Source: Archaeoglobaceae archaeon (GTDB taxonomy: Archaea > Halobacteriota > Archaeoglobi > Archaeoglobales > Archaeoglobaceae). Taken from it: 64,000 bases of DNA. A program made the translations under genes and the position numbers. Shown here in pieces: positions 27,189-33,733 of the stretch. Within the stretch, counting starts at the first letter, position 1, and every line of letters begins with the position of its first letter. The notes under the pieces are model-generated. The model saw only the letters and a list, made by a program, of their open reading frames with translations. It did not search any database and had not been told where the DNA came from. The DNA lies in NCBI GenBank assembly GCA_025057895.1, contig JANXEF010000006.1, positions 1 through 64,000 on the forward strand, given 5' to 3'.

Positions 27189-28082
27189 TTAAAAATCTAT
27201 TGGAACCGATCTTGGTAACCCCGCTCTGGCACCGATTTGCTGAATGCAGAGAGATGCTACGTAGTTTCCAATTTTTCCACATTTTTCAATATCCTTTCCA
27301 TTGATATAGCCATAGAGAAAGCCAGCATTGAAGGCATCACCTGCTCCAGTTGTATCTACGACTCTTACGGAAAAAGGCGGAATAAAGATTTCTTTTGATT
27401 TACTCTTTATCCAGCATCCCTTTTCACCAAGCTTAACAGCAACAACTTCTATACCGAGCGAAATACACTCCTCAGCAGCGCTCATATAATCCATGTTAAA
27501 AATTTTCTCGATCTCTATTTTGTTTGGCAGGAAAATCGTGGTTTTTTTCAATATTGGAATTATTTCATTTCCACGTTCTGCGTACGGCATCCCAGGATCG
27601 AAACTTACTAGTTCGAATTCTCCAACGATCTTTTTCTGTGACTTAAATGATTCGAAACCATTCTTGCAGATAAAGGATGTGAGGTGTATGAGTGAGTGAC
27701 TTTTCACGAAATTGAGGTCTATTTCCTCGTAACGAATTGTGTCGTTCACTCCTGGATCGACGAGAATTGCCCTATTTCCGAGATCGTCTACGAAAATTAT
27801 TGCTGTCCCACTTCTTCCATCAGCCTTTATAACAGCTTTTGTATCAACTCCCTCTTTTTCCAAATCTTCAAGTAAAATCTTGCCTTCTACATCATCTCCG
27901 ATCTTACCTATGTATGCACTTCTAACTTTAAGCCTCGAGAGGCCAACTATCGTATTTGCTGCACTTCCACCCGGAAAAAGTTGGATATCCCTTACAAATC
28001 CCTCTTCATCGGCTGCAGGAATCTTGTCTACCCTATAGATTTTGTCAAGGTTCAAAGCTCCGAAACCTATCACGCTATTCAA
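27189..28082 (-). CDS. PfkB-family carbohydrate/nucleoside kinase
   Basis: 297 aa starting at TTG 28082 (a GTG 9 nt on is possible). The first PfkB signature is FPGGSAANTIVGLSRL near residue 36 and the second, DTTGAGDAFNAGFLYGY with the catalytic Asp, is near residue 248. Family members phosphorylate sugars or nucleosides (ribokinase, adenosine kinase and so on); the substrate cannot be assigned. The start overlaps the end of the small ferredoxin gene by 8 nt. Confidence 0.82.
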   Translation of the reverse strand: MNSVIGFGALNLDKIYRVDKIPAADEEGFVRDIQLFPGGSAANTIVGLSRLKVRSAYIGKIGDDVEGKILLEDLEKEGVDTKAVIKADGRSGTAIIFVDDLGNRAILVDPGVNDTIRYEEIDLNFVKSHSLIHLTSFICKNGFESFKSQKKIVGEFELVSFDPGMPYAERGNEIIPILKKTTIFLPNKIEIEKIFNMDYMSAAEECISLGIEVVAVKLGEKGCWIKSKSKEIFIPPFSVRVVDTTGAGDAFNAGFLYGYINGKDIEKCGKIGNYVASLCIQQIGARAGLPRSVPIDF

Positions 28083-28245
28083 GGCTTATCGCCTCGTTTG
28101 GACAAACATCCACGCAGCTTCCACAGTCTGTGCATATATCCACATCCACGCTTGCACAGTCGTTGAGCTCTATCGCTCCAACTGGACACTCGTCAACGCA
28201 ATTTCCACAACCATCGCATTTCAGTCTGTCCACAACTGCTGGCAT
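28075..28245 (-). CDS. 2[4Fe-4S] ferredoxin
   Basis: A 56-aa gene, starting MPAVVDRLKC, with two complete clusters: CDGCGNCVDECP (about 10-21) and CTDCGSCVDVCP (about 38-49). Its length and spacing are those of a clostridial-type ferredoxin that carries low-potential electrons, e.g. for the POR 3 kb away. It reads divergently from the KaiC-like cluster and shares the 79-bp intergenic region with it. Confidence 0.92.
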   Translation of the reverse strand: MPAVVDRLKCDGCGNCVDECPVGAIELNDCASVDVDICTDCGSCVDVCPNEAISLE

Positions 28246-28294
28246 AAAGTTCGTAAACCCAAGACTTATAAGATTCTTTCAATTTTGAAGGTTA

Positions 28295-28306
28295 GATTTA
28301 TATTTG
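28295..28306 (+). promoter_or_regulatory. promoter of the KaiC-like gene cluster
   Basis: GATTTATATTTG is a clear TATA element centred about 25 nt before the ATG at 28325. That spacing puts the transcription start at or next to the start codon, so the message is probably leaderless. This also supports 28325 rather than the upstream TTG at 28304. Confidence 0.55.
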
Positions 28307-28324: not shown

Positions 28325-29047
28325 ATGGATTATGCAAGATTTGGCATATCAAGGCTTGACAGCTATTTGGGCGGTGGACTTGATAGAAACACCATAAATC
28401 TTCTCATCGGAAGAAGTGGAATTGGTAAAACTATTCTTGCAGCTCATTGGGCTGCAGAAGGTGCTAAAAATGGTGAAACAGTTATATACATCTCTACGAC
28501 AATGAACAAATACAACTGTAAGAACTATCTTGGAGATTTCAGCTTCATGAAAGATTTATATGAAAAGATCCATTGGCGTTTCATAAGGATTGAACCTAAA
28601 TATCTTCTGCCAATGAGTAAAGAGAAGGTCAGAGAAGCTCTTGAGGCAACATATGGTATGAGAGGAGAAGAAGTTGATAGAGTAATTTTTGATTCTTGCA
28701 CAGATCTAGAGAAAACATTGGCAGATGTTGTTCTTTACAGAAGAGCAATAAGATATATGGCTGATCTTGCTTATAAGTATGAGTTCACATCGCTTTGGGT
28801 TGAAGAAGCGCCTATGAATGGAACTTGGAGTGATACAAAAAACCTAGTGGAAACTGCAATTTTCATGAATATTCTTAGAATTCCTGATGGTTATATAAGA
28901 GCAATGAGGATTTTGAAAAAATACCGATCCATGCACCCACTCGAATGGTTTCCATACGAGATAACAAAGGAGGGTTTGATTGTAAAAGAGGGTTGGTATG
29001 TGAAAAAGGACTATGATTACAAATTCAAGCCTTCCAGAGAAGATTAA
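28325..29047 (+). CDS. KaiC/RadA-like ATPase, cluster gene 1
   Basis: 240 aa. A single KaiC domain: FGISRLDSYLGGGLDRNTIN entry, intact P-loop GRSGIGKT (29-36), Walker B-like RVIFDSCTDL near 127. Where KaiC has its paired catalytic glutamates after the second strand, this protein reads YISTTMNK, so hydrolysis may be weak. The C-terminus is long and basic-aromatic (KEGWYVKKDYDYKF). Start chosen by the promoter spacing. It overlaps gene 2 by 35 nt. Related archaeal KaiC-like proteins have been proposed as signalling hubs; no specific role is known here. Confidence 0.72.
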   Translation: MDYARFGISRLDSYLGGGLDRNTINLLIGRSGIGKTILAAHWAAEGAKNGETVIYISTTMNKYNCKNYLGDFSFMKDLYEKIHWRFIRIEPKYLLPMSKEKVREALEATYGMRGEEVDRVIFDSCTDLEKTLADVVLYRRAIRYMADLAYKYEFTSLWVEEAPMNGTWSDTKNLVETAIFMNILRIPDGYIRAMRILKKYRSMHPLEWFPYEITKEGLIVKEGWYVKKDYDYKFKPSRED

Positions 29048-29570
29048 AAGAGCGATGGAAAATGGAGCAGAGATAATTCTAGTCAAATTAGATGCAAAAA
29101 ACTATGTAAGGATTAGCATTGAAATTTTAAAGTTTCTATCATCCTTCGCTGAGGGAATTTATGTTACTCTTAACAAACCACATTTCAGTCTGAAAAAGCT
29201 TCTTGGAAAAGAGGGAATAGATCTTAGAAAGCTATACTTCATTGACAGCATTACGATGCAAGTAGGAGGGGAAATAATAGATGAAGAGAGGTGCTTTTAT
29301 CTCAATTCTCCTGATCCAGTCCAGCTTCAAATAGCTATAGAAAGAGCAATGGATCTGATCAGTTCAGAAAATCGCTTTATTTACATCGACTCTCTTTCCA
29401 CTATATCACTCTATAAATCGTTCGAAACTTTAATAAAGTTTCTCAGACATATAACAGGAAAAATTAGACTTCGTGGATTTATTGGGACTATCTTCACTCT
29501 CGAGAGAGAGATGGATGAGGTATACTATTCTCAAATAACACTCATGTGCGACGAGGTGATCGAGGCTTGA
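29013..29570 (+). CDS. KaiC-like protein lacking the P-loop, cluster gene 2
   Basis: 185 aa, no Walker A anywhere. The fold is suggested by ILVKLDAKNYVRISIEILKF, the strand IYVTLNKPHFSLKKLL where KaiC has its second strand, and a Walker-B-like FIYIDSLSTISLYKS near residue 128 followed by a long helix and a terminal RGFIGTIF strand. It looks like a KaiC/RadA relative reduced to a pseudo-ATPase. It is not simply a frameshifted copy: it is open throughout and overlaps both neighbours, so it is translated as part of the operon. Confidence 0.55.
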   Translation: MITNSSLPEKIKRAMENGAEIILVKLDAKNYVRISIEILKFLSSFAEGIYVTLNKPHFSLKKLLGKEGIDLRKLYFIDSITMQVGGEIIDEERCFYLNSPDPVQLQIAIERAMDLISSENRFIYIDSLSTISLYKSFETLIKFLRHITGKIRLRGFIGTIFTLEREMDEVYYSQITLMCDEVIEA

Positions 29571-30301
29571 TTTCAACAGGTATTGAATCTCTTGATAAAC
29601 AGATCGGTGGTTTTTATGAAGGACTTGTAATACTATACGAGCAAAGTGGAGCAGGAGGAAAAGAATTTGGACTCACCATGCTTTTTAATAATTCAGGAAA
29701 AATGCCCCTATACTACGTTGCGATTACAAAAACAATAGATGAGATCAAAAGAGATATAAGACTTTCATTTCCGGAAATGAAAAAACAAGCTGACATTAAA
29801 CTCTTGAGTCTCGCAGATTACTATTTCAGAGATTCAGTCATTCCAATGAAATGGATATCGGAAAAAGGTTCTCTGAAACTCTTGAAAGAAGAAAAGGGTG
29901 TTCTTGCAAAACTCGTGGAAGTTTTTGACAACGTTTATGGTATTGTAATGCTAGACTCTTTGACAGATTTAGCAAGAGTTGCGAGGAAAATCGGCTGGAT
30001 TGCATTTATAGATATTCTTAAGGGATTTAAGGCAGTTTGTTTAAAAAAGAAGATTCTACTACTCGCTTTACTTACTGCCAATGTCCTTGAAAGAGGCCTT
30101 GAAGAAGAGCTTTTCGAAACCTCCGACGGAGTTATAGTTTTTGAATGGTCTTTTGAAAAGGAAGCGATAACTAGATGGATGTTTTTCAGGAAAATGCTTG
30201 GAATAATGCCAATCCTTGAAAAAGAGAGAGTAATAAAGTACAGCACAAAAATCGATCCTTCACAAGGTTTTACGATCTCAAGAATAATGAGAATTTTATA
30301 A
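29567..30301 (+). CDS. KaiC-like protein with degenerate P-loop, cluster gene 3
   Basis: 244 aa from a TTG at 29567 that overlaps the previous TGA (TTGA) and has a well placed GAGGTGAT Shine-Dalgarno; a GTG at 29546 is the alternative. The entry STGIESLDKQIGGFYEGLV is typical KaiC, but the P-loop position reads EQSGAGGKEF (25-34), missing the first glycine and the Ser/Thr. Walker B region IVMLDSLTDLARVA is present. Probably binds no ATP or binds it unusually. Confidence 0.6.
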   Translation: MISTGIESLDKQIGGFYEGLVILYEQSGAGGKEFGLTMLFNNSGKMPLYYVAITKTIDEIKRDIRLSFPEMKKQADIKLLSLADYYFRDSVIPMKWISEKGSLKLLKEEKGVLAKLVEVFDNVYGIVMLDSLTDLARVARKIGWIAFIDILKGFKAVCLKKKILLLALLTANVLERGLEEELFETSDGVIVFEWSFEKEAITRWMFFRKMLGIMPILEKERVIKYSTKIDPSQGFTISRIMRIL

Positions 30302-30307
30302 AAATTT

Positions 30308-30988
30308 ATGAGACTCTCAACCGGAATCTTTGGTCTAGATGCCCTTCTCGGTGGTGGTATTCCAAAAGGATACGTCATTGCGGTTATTGGAAGCTACGGA
30401 ACCGGAAAAACGATTCTTGGTATTCACTTCATATACGAGGGATTGAAAAGAGGAGAGAGTTGCATCCTACTGAGCCTCGATGAGGATGAAGAGAGCATAA
30501 TGCGAAATGCAAGGAGTGTTGGCATGGTTCTCGAAAATTTCAAAAATCTTGAAGTAGTGAGACTAGAGGCTTTAGAAGTAAAAAAGAGTTTTGAAAAAAT
30601 CGAAAACGATTTACCAGAGTTGATAAGAAGTCTCAATGCTAGTAGAATGCTCATCGATTCGATAAGCATCCTCGAAACTCTTTTCAGCGATGCAGAGAGG
30701 TATCATATGTTATCTTCTCTCAAGAGAATCATGAAATCTGCGGGAATAACAGCGATTCTGACGAGTGAAGCAGATAAATATCTGCCCACGACCTCTAAGT
30801 ATGGAATTCTCGAATACGTCTGTGATGGAATGATTTGTTTGAAGATGGTAAGAAAAAATGAGCTAGAGGAGCCAACATTTGGACTTGAAGTTGTAAAAAT
30901 GCGAGGAATAAAACATTCGAGGAAACCAAAACCATATGCAATCACAGAAAATGGAATAGTTGTTTACGAAGAAGCTGAGATTTTGTAA
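30308..30988 (+). CDS. KaiC-domain ATPase, cluster gene 4
   Basis: 226 aa, the most canonical of the four. Entry STGIFGLDALLGGGIPKGYV, P-loop GSYGTGKT (28-35), an acidic stretch SLDEDEESI near 55-63 at the catalytic-glutamate position, Walker B SRMLIDSISILETLF near 113, and the C-terminal strand GLEVVKMRGIKHSRKPKPY usual in KaiC domains. It starts 6 nt after gene 3. It is the likely active partner for the reduced copies upstream. Confidence 0.8.
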   Translation: MRLSTGIFGLDALLGGGIPKGYVIAVIGSYGTGKTILGIHFIYEGLKRGESCILLSLDEDEESIMRNARSVGMVLENFKNLEVVRLEALEVKKSFEKIENDLPELIRSLNASRMLIDSISILETLFSDAERYHMLSSLKRIMKSAGITAILTSEADKYLPTTSKYGILEYVCDGMICLKMVRKNELEEPTFGLEVVKMRGIKHSRKPKPYAITENGIVVYEEAEIL

Positions 30989-31039: not shown

Positions 31040-31555
31040 GTGCTCATCGAACTAATCATATATTCAAGAGGGGGACAAGGTGGTGTGACGGCAGCTAGAT
31101 TTGTCGGTACTGCTGCCATGCTTCAGGGTTTCTTTGCTCAGACAATTCCTCAATTTGGTCCAGAAAGGAGAGGTGCAAGAGTTTACACTTATCTCCGAAT
31201 ATCAGACAAGCAAATAAGGAAAAGATCACAGATAAAAAATCCCAACTGTATAGCGCTCTTCGACAAAAAAATAGAGATAAAAGATGGAACGAATATTGCA
31301 ATTGTTAATTCCAGAGAACCATTAAAACTAGCTGAAAAAACTTTCTACGTTGATGCAACTTCTATTGCAGAGAAATATGGACTAATAAATGCTGGTTGGC
31401 CAATTTTAAGCGCTCCAATGAGTGGAGCTATAACAAGAGCTATCGGAATTGAGACCAGCTATCTTATCGAGGCAATAAAAATTGAATTAGGCGAAAAAGC
31501 TGAAAAAAGTTGTTTAGCAGCAAAAGAAGCTCATGAGGTGGTAAATTGGATTTAG
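31040..31555 (+). CDS. porG: 2-oxoacid (pyruvate):ferredoxin oxidoreductase gamma subunit
   Basis: 171 aa from a GTG. The signature GRGGQGGVTAAR-like SRGGQGGVTAARFVG is at residue 9, then FGPERRGARVYTYLRIS near 43. This is the gamma domain of ferredoxin-linked 2-oxoacid oxidoreductases. A TATA-like TTTTTTAAT at 31011-31020 lies about 25 nt before the GTG, again suggesting a leaderless transcript. First gene of the four-gene por operon; it overlaps porD by 10 nt. Confidence 0.9.
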   Translation: MLIELIIYSRGGQGGVTAARFVGTAAMLQGFFAQTIPQFGPERRGARVYTYLRISDKQIRKRSQIKNPNCIALFDKKIEIKDGTNIAIVNSREPLKLAEKTFYVDATSIAEKYGLINAGWPILSAPMSGAITRAIGIETSYLIEAIKIELGEKAEKSCLAAKEAHEVVNWI

Positions 31556-31782
31556 AGCCTCTAATCTCTAAAGCTAAGATTGGTTCAGCAGGTATAACGG
31601 GATCCTGGAGAAACTACCGTCCAGTTTTTGATGTAAATCTATGCACTAAATGTGATATGTGCACGATTTATTGTCCAGAAGGAGTTATTGTTCAAGGAGA
31701 AGTAAACTACGAGTTTTGCAAGGGGTGTGGAATTTGCAAGGAAATTTGCAAACAAAGAGCAATAAAAATGGTTCAAGAATGA
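31546..31782 (+). CDS. porD: 2-oxoacid (pyruvate):ferredoxin oxidoreductase delta subunit
   Basis: 78 aa from a TTG start preceded by a GAGGTGG Shine-Dalgarno. It carries two [4Fe-4S] motifs, CTKCDMCTIYCP and CKGCGICKEICK, with the TGSWRNYRPVFD lead typical of PorD. It passes electrons from the TPP centre to external ferredoxin. Overlaps porA by 4 nt. Confidence 0.9.
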   Translation: MDLEPLISKAKIGSAGITGSWRNYRPVFDVNLCTKCDMCTIYCPEGVIVQGEVNYEFCKGCGICKEICKQRAIKMVQE

Positions 31783-32861
31783 GAAGACTATTGACTAGTA
31801 ACGAAGCAATTGCTCAAGCTGTGAAAATTGCAGAACCAGATGTGATTGCAGCTTATCCGATAACTCCACAATCACCTATTGTAGAGAAACTAGCTGAGAT
31901 GATCGAGAGAGGTGAATTAAACTCCAGATTTATATGCGTTGAATCTGAACATTCAGCAATGGCAGTTATCCATGGGGCTGCAACAACTGGAGCCAGAGTT
32001 TTTACCGCCACTTCCAGTCATGGACTTGCTTATATGTTGGAAATGTGCTGGTGGCTTGCTGGTTCGCGATTACCAGCTGTGATGGCAGTAGCGATGCGAT
32101 CCATTGGTGCTCCTTGGAACATTCATGGAGATCATACAGATATAATGCTCTTAAGAGATGCTGGATGGATAATAGCAATAGCAGAAAATGCACAGGAAGC
32201 TTTTGACATAACTCTACAGGCTTTTTATGTAAGTGAAGAAATAAATATTCCATTTGCCATTGGAATAGATGCATTCACGATGAGTCATACTGCAGAAGTG
32301 GTTGAAATCTGGAAACCAGAGATTCCAAACAGAAGACAAGCCTATCGTGTTCTTCCTGGTCAAGAAATATCTGTTAACGCTGTTACATTTGGAAAAGCGA
32401 GAATGAAGGCAAGATACGACTTAGCTTTAGATTTAGAAAAATCTGCTGAAATAATAGAAAAAAGTGATATGGAATTTGGAAATCATGGTGGATTGGTGGA
32501 GAAGTATAGGCTCGAGGATGCAGATTTCGTAGTTGTGATGACTGGAAGCTGGTGTGGTGATGCAAAAGATGCGATTGACTTGCTCAGAGATGAAGGTGTA
32601 AAGATTGGTCTCCTCAGGCTTCGTTTTATCAGACCTTTTCCAAGGAAATTTTTAAAAGAATTGGACTGTGAAATTCTAGTCGTTGATAAGAGTAACACAA
32701 CACTCCACGGAGTCCTTGGTACTGAAATAGGTGCATGTGGTCTTAAAGTTAAAAATGCCATTGCCGGCATTGGTGGGCTTGAGGTAGGATTTTATGACTT
32801 CTATACACTTTTTAAGAGATTCGTGAAAGGTGAAGTGAACGAAGTGGAGTGGTTGATATGA
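31779..32861 (+). CDS. porA: 2-oxoacid (pyruvate):ferredoxin oxidoreductase alpha subunit
   Basis: 360 aa from ATG 31779 (ATGA overlap with porD); the open frame extends 40 codons further upstream but that part is the porD gene in another frame. AAYPITPQSPIVEKLAEMI near residue 22, ESEHSAMAVIHGAATTGARV near 50, GTEIGACGL near the end. These match the PorA alpha subunit; the YPITPQ block binds substrate/TPP. Pyruvate is the likely substrate because of the gamma-delta-alpha-beta order, though a 2-ketoisovalerate enzyme cannot be excluded. Confidence 0.9.
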   Translation: MRRLLTSNEAIAQAVKIAEPDVIAAYPITPQSPIVEKLAEMIERGELNSRFICVESEHSAMAVIHGAATTGARVFTATSSHGLAYMLEMCWWLAGSRLPAVMAVAMRSIGAPWNIHGDHTDIMLLRDAGWIIAIAENAQEAFDITLQAFYVSEEINIPFAIGIDAFTMSHTAEVVEIWKPEIPNRRQAYRVLPGQEISVNAVTFGKARMKARYDLALDLEKSAEIIEKSDMEFGNHGGLVEKYRLEDADFVVVMTGSWCGDAKDAIDLLRDEGVKIGLLRLRFIRPFPRKFLKELDCEILVVDKSNTTLHGVLGTEIGACGLKVKNAIAGIGGLEVGFYDFYTLFKRFVKGEVNEVEWLI

Positions 32862-33733
32862 TTCTGCCTGGAAATGCAAGTTGTCAAGGCTGTCCAATCT
32901 CGCTTGCGATGCGCTGTCTCGATGAAATAGAGAATCCGGTTGTAGCGATGCCGGCTGGATGTTCAACTGTCATCGCAGGACTTCATCCAAATTCAGCGAT
33001 GAAACTGCCAGTCGTCCATGTCCCATTTGCATCAACTCCTGCAGTGGCTTGTGGTTTAAGCGAAGCTTATAAAAGAGGAGGAATTAAAGCAAACGTGATA
33101 GCTTGGATGGGAGATGGGGCCGCTGATATAGGCTTTGCAGTTCTGAGTGCATCCGCAATTAGAAACGATGATATAATCGTAATTGTGGTTGACAATGAGG
33201 CCTACATGAATACTGGAACACAAGCAAGCCTGAGTACACCGTTTGGAGCTAGAACAACAACTTCTCCAATGGGAAAAAAACAGGGAAGGAGAAATCTAGG
33301 GCTTATAATGGTTGCACATCGTGCAAATTATGTTGCAACCGCAACAGTTGGTTTTATTCATGATCTAAGAAAAAAGTTCAAGAAAGCTGGAAAGATAGGA
33401 GGTTTCAGATTTCTTCATGTTCATACTCCATGTCCACCAGGATGGAAGTTTCCAAGCGATAAAACAATAGAAGTTGCGAGACTAGCTGTAAAAACCGGTG
33501 CATGGGTTCTATATGAGTACGAAAATGGTAAAATAGAATTTTCCGAACCTGGAAAAAGATTTCTCGACAAAAAAAACAGACTGCCATTGAAAGATTACAT
33601 AAGAATGCAGGGAAGGTTTACACTCAGAGACGAGGAAATAAATATAATTGAAGAAGAGATCGATGAGGAGATCAGAATTCTTTCTAATTTAAAAAAATCA
33701 CAAAACAACAAAAACCATAATGGAAATTTTTAG
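32858..33733 (+). CDS. porB: 2-oxoacid (pyruvate):ferredoxin oxidoreductase beta subunit
   Basis: 291 aa from ATG 32858, again an ATGA overlap. GNASCQGCPISLAMR gives two Fe-S cysteines near residue 9, and GDGAADIGFAVLSASAIRND through VVDNEAYMNTG is the TPP/Mg site near 87-120. A late Cys in HVHTPCPPGW near 190 completes the proximal cluster set. Last gene of the operon; a 124-bp convergent gap separates it from cdc48. Confidence 0.92.
   Translation: MILPGNASCQGCPISLAMRCLDEIENPVVAMPAGCSTVIAGLHPNSAMKLPVVHVPFASTPAVACGLSEAYKRGGIKANVIAWMGDGAADIGFAVLSASAIRNDDIIVIVVDNEAYMNTGTQASLSTPFGARTTTSPMGKKQGRRNLGLIMVAHRANYVATATVGFIHDLRKKFKKAGKIGGFRFLHVHTPCPPGWKFPSDKTIEVARLAVKTGAWVLYEYENGKIEFSEPGKRFLDKKNRLPLKDYIRMQGRFTLRDEEINIIEEEIDEEIRILSNLKKSQNNKNHNGNF

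Follow-up and report, generated by a model that had tools for sequence, protein, structure and literature searches.

Why would an archaeon keep, side by side, four genes for KaiC-like proteins of which only one seems equipped to hydrolyse ATP? The question is raised by a stretch of 64,000 nucleotides (hereafter the window) from an Archaeoglobaceae archaeon (GenBank assembly GCA_025057895.1, contig JANXEF010000006.1, positions 1 to 64,000), in which four co-directional genes on the + strand, here numbered 1 to 4, span positions 28325-30988 and all encode KaiC/RecA-fold proteins. Archaeal KaiC-like ATPases have been proposed as native signalling hubs, and few of them have identified partners. 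Judging from the sequences, gene 4 alone among the four has the complete set of KaiC catalytic elements, and evolution has preserved genes 2 and 3, whose products appear unable to bind ATP. We propose, with an even chance of being right, that the four proteins make up a hetero-oligomeric KaiC-family regulator, and that its core, the products of genes 3 and 4, was ancestrally tied to a PilB3/PilC3-type type IV pilus machine.

The original prediction described four tandem KaiC-like genes with particular motifs, and all the open reading frames and motifs lie where it had placed them. Gene 4 (30308..30988, + strand) encodes what appears to be a complete single-domain KaiC ATPase: it matches the Pfam KaiC family (PF06745) with an E-value of 6.5e-58 and passes the TIGR03880 model KaiC_arch_3 (286.8 bits; curated cut-off, 249.45). 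Its motifs comprise a GSYGTGKT P-loop (GxxGTGKT), SLDEDEESI with DEDEE at the catalytic-glutamate position, IDS, and a KMR finger. All parts of the active site, namely P-loop, acidic pair, Walker B, and K-x-R finger, are conserved in 30 orthologues, with KMR invariant.

Gene 1 (28325..29047, + strand; 240 amino acids, ATG start) also matches PF06745 (E-value 5e-23). Its P-loop is intact (GRSGIGKT in the window; orthologue consensus G-R-[SN]-G-x-G-K-T) and the Walker B Asp is kept, but the catalytic glutamate pair that follows strand 2 in active KaiC proteins is replaced by Thr58-Thr59 (STT), and Thr-Thr is found there in 15/15 orthologues. In a profile alignment, an invariant Lys stands at the finger Lys, a Tyr at the finger Arg, and an Arg one residue later. 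In this catalytic defect, gene 1 resembles ArlH, which binds ATP without hydrolysing it, forms hexamers, and controls ArlI (PMC8978795). By analogy with ArlH, the product of gene 1 probably binds ATP without hydrolysis. The predicted complement of one or two active ATPases accompanied by pseudo-ATPases is borne out at the level of motifs, in that only gene 4 looks complete and gene 1 may still bind ATP.

Gene 3 (29567..30301, + strand) encodes a putative pseudo-ATPase with the KaiC fold. It scores slightly below the PF06745 cut-off (25.7 bits against 26.6; E-value 8.6e-6), and at the place of the P-loop it reads EQSGAGGKEF, in which the P-loop Lys-Thr, and so a Walker A motif, is absent. The GAGxxEF signature is nonetheless kept in nearly all readable orthologues across the phylum, the exceptions being two proteins of genus g11 (GGCAREF) and isolated changes (to GSG, DF, or SF, for example), and the Walker-B-like DS is mostly retained. 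Its finger lysine, which aligns with the lysine of the KaiC K-x-R finger, is the same in every aligned sequence, and the full K-x-R is present in most readable orthologues outside the Archaeoglobales, those of haloarchaea-like families excepted. Gene 2 (29013..29570, + strand; 185 amino acids) is more reduced. It matches DUF7504 (28.3 bits; cut-off, 27), falls below the cut-off for DUF835 (26.2 against 33.1 bits), and matches PF06745 weakly (E-value 3e-4); it has no Walker A motif, its chain stops short of the hairpin that bears the K-x-R finger in KaiC, and an invariant DSxS occupies the Walker B place. Within the genus, gene 2 is 82-84% identical and the active gene 4 is 75-82% identical; in other words, the conservation of gene 2 at least equals that of gene 4.

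AlphaFold models of both proteins, built on alignments of the window protein with proteins from related genomes, are well defined: the mean predicted local distance difference test (pLDDT) and predicted template-modelling (pTM) scores are 90.7 and 0.87 for gene 2, and 91.5 and 0.90 for gene 3. In Foldseek searches of the PDB, the gene 2 model matched FlaH and KaiC (top match, FlaH 4yds, E-value 2.2e-7), and the gene 3 model matched KaiC 7s65 (3.4e-11) and SSO2452 (4.9e-11), as well as FlaH and PH0284. Unrelated folds for genes 2 and 3 would have spoken against the original prediction; the models show the KaiC/RecA fold instead.

Two further loci should be mentioned (L and G are our labels for loci and genomes). 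In the draft genome G028 (L095 877-1615), gene 3 is broken by stops or frameshifts and gene 4 is open; either a fault in the assembly or a copy in decay may explain this. G036 carries an extra KaiC-like pseudo-ATPase, with EEPGAGAHVF at the P-loop place, approximately 1.3 kb upstream of its own tetrad (L082 1508-2221).

How firmly are the four genes held together? Among 60 related genomes that we searched, 40 belong to the Archaeoglobi (G000-G039). Genes 3 and 4 are always found together, in 27 of these 40; 20 of the 27 also have gene 2, and 15 of the 20 have gene 1 as well, which is perfect nesting (G011 is not counted for gene 1, its contig beginning inside gene 2). The four genes are thus kept together in related genomes, as the original prediction required, and their order recurs in 15/40 Archaeoglobi genomes, far beyond chance. 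In all the loci that we fetched, the cluster genes are adjacent and in the same order, and the flanking genes vary between genera. Because one genome from another family of this taxonomic order (G036, L082) has all four genes, the common ancestor of the order probably already had the tetrad, which was later trimmed from the front, gene 1 being lost first and gene 2 next. A contig scan with gene 2 gave records from Archaeoglobus and Archaeoglobales metagenome-assembled genomes (MAGs), one Ferroglobus MAG, and one Geoglobus MAG; the cluster is also present in genome G139, and it is wholly absent from some nearly complete congener genomes.

The ratio of non-synonymous to synonymous substitution rates (dN/dS) is approximately 0.02-0.05 where it is measurable, synonymous sites being mostly saturated; because of this low ratio and the conserved motifs, we reject pseudogene decay. 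In a tree with other KaiC-like proteins from several genomes (the final version omits the open reading frames of L003 and L318), the four proteins form four separate clades, with ultrafast bootstrap (UFBoot) values of 89, 100, 99, and 100. The cluster was therefore built from old, distinct families, and a recent tandem duplication is ruled out by the depth of these clades. Genes 1 and 4 fall in the main KaiC-like group, where they are not sisters, rather than with RadA/RadB. Genes 2 and 3 come together near FlaH-like sequences (UFBoot 86), on long branches, and we do not rely on this grouping.

Gene 1 and gene 2 share 35 nucleotides, and gene 4 starts 6 nucleotides downstream of gene 3. The listed GTG start of gene 3 (29546) is probably wrong, because two close orthologues (L072 and L074) carry stops in the stretch before the codon that matches TTG 29567, at which their proteins begin; the TTG start would give a 4-nucleotide overlap of gene 3 with gene 2. 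A leaderless promoter had been predicted. An element resembling a B recognition element and TATA box (BRE/TATA-like; GGTTAGATTTATATTTG, 28290..28306, + strand) lies approximately 25 nucleotides 5' of the gene 1 ATG, is found once in the window against 0.03 matches expected by chance, and recurs with similar sequence, similarly spaced from the start codon, in genus-level orthologues. Its conservation supports a single leaderless transcript of the cluster.

The pair formed by genes 3 and 4 is far older than the Archaeoglobales tetrad. When 394 genomes of the phylum were searched with a profile, gene 3 was found in 187, usually as a single copy, and gene 4 directly follows gene 3 in sampled loci of 14 further families. 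In 12 genomes, representing nine of these 14 families, the pair adjoins genes for a T2SSE ATPase and a T2SSF protein, the two units being divergent in 11/12, and the one pair-linked T2SSE ATPase that was scanned contains a PilB3_C domain. This is the kind of neighbourhood expected of an ArlH-like protein, and it is found in these genomes of other families and not in the Archaeoglobales. Among possible ancestral roles for the 3-4 pair, control of a pilus has the best support. The pair and the pilus operon are often joined by two TldD/PmbA-type genes and a gene for a LonB-type protease, which extends the conserved neighbourhood (L088, L092, L157, L162, L163, L175, and L176).

Gene 2 has a different background, being derived from a family of inactivated KaiC proteins linked to sensors. 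Its relatives outside the Archaeoglobales are stand-alone proteins, often present in several copies per genome, and in methanogen-type genomes they lie directly downstream of a sensor gene in approximately 16 of 21 distinct loci. The sensor partners are PAS or membrane proteins with a C-terminal helix pair similar to that used for dimerization in histidine kinases and a conserved IPxxYRxFL-type tail (an automatic pattern matched this tail in 11/26 loci, and the remaining loci were judged by eye from their tails); no kinase ATPase domain was found in the partners that were scanned. These neighbours tie the family of gene 2 to sensing. Two-gene units of this type are seen at L087 7050-8338, L183 3562-4771, L186 2552-4607, and L191 4012-5247, among others (L177-L196). 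The helix pair shows no evident phospho-acceptor His, and it is possible that such units are an undescribed type of sensor that signals via an inactivated KaiC protein. Relatives of gene 2 that have no partner with the sensor tail were seen in Aenigmatarchaeota, Micrarchaeota, and Burarchaeum MAGs and in one uncultured archaeon (L246-L249). In the tetrad, the position upstream of gene 2, which elsewhere is occupied by the sensor gene, is held by gene 1.

From these observations, the following mechanism can be outlined, the subunit roles being assigned because of the active-site parts that each protein keeps and because of the nested dependence among the genes. The product of gene 4 would be the ATP-driven switch and the sole catalytically complete subunit. 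That of gene 3 would be its obligate partner, with the same fold, the nucleotide pocket lost, and the neighbour-facing surface and finger lysine kept; it would flank the ATP site of gene 4 and be unable to fire itself. Gene 1 would hold ATP without hydrolysing it, and gene 2, in which P-loop and finger are both missing, is probably the part through which a signal reaches the assembly. The ancestral output of the 3-4 core would be control of the PilB3/PilC3-type machine, as ArlH controls ArlI; in the Archaeoglobales, the core would have lost its tie to the pilus operon and gained genes 2 and 1. Formation of the complex, donation of the finger in trans, ATP binding by gene 1, and an output to a pilus or a signal are the parts of this scheme that we infer. 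Its most specific form is a mixed KaiC ring with one subunit that hydrolyses ATP, one that holds but does not hydrolyse it, and two that are ATP-less, in which the trans finger of gene 3 times the firing of gene 4 and which was assembled stepwise from ancient families, first 3-4, then 2, then 1. We put this form forward tentatively, as the less probable outcome.

Several observations weigh against a pilus-derived regulator of this kind. Six haloarchaea-like families have gene 3 without an adjacent gene 4, and gene 3 can therefore act without a neighbouring partner gene; loci of this type, with a single gene 3 orthologue and a GAGAREF-type motif, are L093, L094, L159, L160, L166, and L171. The finger arginine of gene 3 is replaced in most Archaeoglobales, and four genomes have genes 2, 3, and 4 without gene 1. 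As for the pilus, no pilus gene was found beside the cluster in any Archaeoglobales locus examined. PilB3-like ATPases are present in Archaeoglobales both with and without the cluster, and indeed nearly everywhere, so that co-occurrence is uninformative. A tree of PilB3-like ATPases groups the pair-linked proteins with haloarchaea-like ones, and there are no Archaeoglobales among those sampled in this clade; pilus control therefore cannot simply be carried over to the tetrad. We had considered carrying it into the Archaeoglobales through orthology of the ATPases, and this tree, partial in its sampling, does not support that step.

The strongest alternative is that, in the Archaeoglobales, the assembly is a hub for signal transduction that has no effect on a pilus: gene 2 would take the input of a sensor, and transcription factors or kinases would be the targets of the assembly. 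The sensor partners of the gene 2 relatives, with their PAS or membrane regions and kinase-dimerization-like C-termini, fit such a role, as do the hub function proposed for archaeal KaiC-like ATPases, the fusion of KaiC, DUF835, and MEDS domains to receiver domains (PMC5847659), and the influence of the Haloferax KaiC-like protein CirA on motility and cell shape (PMC13286277). However, no sensor or receiver gene was recognized beside the Archaeoglobales cluster, where gene 1 sits in the sensor's place, and the link of the 3-4 pair to a pilus ATPase in nine families is specific. We regard a hub without pilus output as a real but minority possibility.

An accessory complex for recombination or repair, comparable to the Rad51 paralogues or to iRadA in the PolB2 mutasome, is improbable. 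In G139, the cluster lies near genes that we take to be XPB-like and Bax1-like, with a sugar-kinase gene in between; this neighbourhood, however, is confined to one genus-level clade. There is a precedent in iRadA, a catalytically dead RadA homologue that serves as a non-ATPase subunit (PMC11791011), but genes 1 and 4 fall among the KaiC-like proteins, away from RadA/RadB, and neither polB2 nor PPB2 was recognized among the neighbours inspected, although no search was aimed at polB2. It is more improbable still that the four proteins are independent and merely co-transcribed, genes 2 and 3 being decaying copies. The loss of genes 1 and 2 in some lineages and the stop-broken gene 3 of the G028 draft would agree with this, but the low dN/dS, the invariant motifs, the nested presence, the adjacency maintained while neighbourhoods shift, and the conservation of gene 2 relative to gene 4 are not what decay would leave. 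Least credible of all is a role for the cluster in redox or metabolic regulation of the adjacent genes, the ferredoxin (56 amino acids; 28075-28245, on the strand opposite to the cluster) and the 2-oxoacid:ferredoxin oxidoreductase directly downstream (gamma, ferredoxin-like delta, alpha, and beta genes; window 31040-33733): these neighbours are shared by the window and two congeneric genomes, but the oxidoreductase is not beside the cluster in the congeners L072 and L073 or in any other genus examined. The divergent ferredoxin of the original prediction does exist, but it is not a conserved neighbour outside close relatives; with it, a link of the cluster to ferredoxin or oxidoreductase is rejected, and both are probably unrelated to the cluster.

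If the four proteins do form a mixed ring, the work of a single KaiC assembly would be split among its unlike subunits. The cluster itself shows a strict order of dependency: gene 1 on gene 2, and gene 2 on genes 3 and 4. It also offers candidate partners for one KaiC-like ATPase, gene 3 being the candidate for gene 4 across much of the phylum, and it gives inactivated KaiC proteins a testable role as finger-donating or signal-coupling subunits. In the families with the pilus-linked pair, the phenotype would be directly readable.

Inactivated KaiC domains, KaiC hubs, and an association of KaiC with pili are already known. In the literature that we covered, which does not include the Makarova 2017 paper on archaeal KaiC hubs, we found no description of the four-gene module, nor any earlier description of its nested conservation, of the phylum-wide GAGxxEF with the finger lysine, or of the sensor partner of the gene 2 family. 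The original prediction that no described system has this layout therefore stands for the four genes as such, but not for their ingredients, inactivated KaiC proteins (PMC5847659) and, in the passage concerned, the KaiC-pilus link (PMC4858521) having been described.

Among known systems, cyanobacterial KaiC is matched by gene 4, whose full length can be aligned with either KaiC domain, the K-x-R finger included, although gene 4 is single-domain and no kaiA or kaiB was recognized near the cluster. The iRadA of the PolB2 mutasome is likewise a catalytically dead RecA-fold subunit conserved in an operon (PMC11791011), but it belongs to the RadA branch rather than the KaiC branch, and its partners PolB2 and PPB2 were not recognized here. 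The inactivated KaiC domains called iKaiC (DUF835 and MEDS; PMC5847659) and DUF7504 share with gene 2, which matches DUF7504 and, below the cut-off, DUF835, a KaiC ancestry, the lack of a working ATP site, and a use in signalling. The cases tabulated in that paper, however, are response regulators with receiver domains, whereas gene 2 encodes a separate subunit within an operon of KaiC genes. Gene 3, for its part, is marked by a GAGxxEF signature of its own and does not match DUF7504 or DUF835. Closer to the 3-4 pair are the KaiC ATPases of arCOG01172 and arCOG01173, which a passage of PMC4858521 places near VirB11/TadC pilus operons in Methanomicrobia; given the same pilus association, these are probably the gene 3-4 pair itself, although that passage mentions neither the pseudo-ATPase partner nor the four-gene version of the Archaeoglobales. 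A further comparison is with ArlH (FlaH), the KaiC-like protein that regulates ArlI, the motor ATPase of the archaellum. ArlH is one homomeric protein, whereas the subunits encoded by the cluster differ from one another; no gene of the four reaches the cut-off of the NCBIfam ArlH model (215; gene 1 scores 29.4 bits and gene 4 scores 45.8 bits), and, judging from sequence, an ArlH-like gene lies at a separate locus in these genomes (L004 and L317). Even so, ArlH is a single-domain protein of KaiC fold that binds ATP without hydrolysis, as predicted for gene 1; as FlaH, it tops the Foldseek matches of gene 2 and is among the top ones for gene 3; and it works beside a T2SSE-type ATPase and a T2SSF-type platform, which is where the genomes outside the Archaeoglobales place the 3-4 pair.

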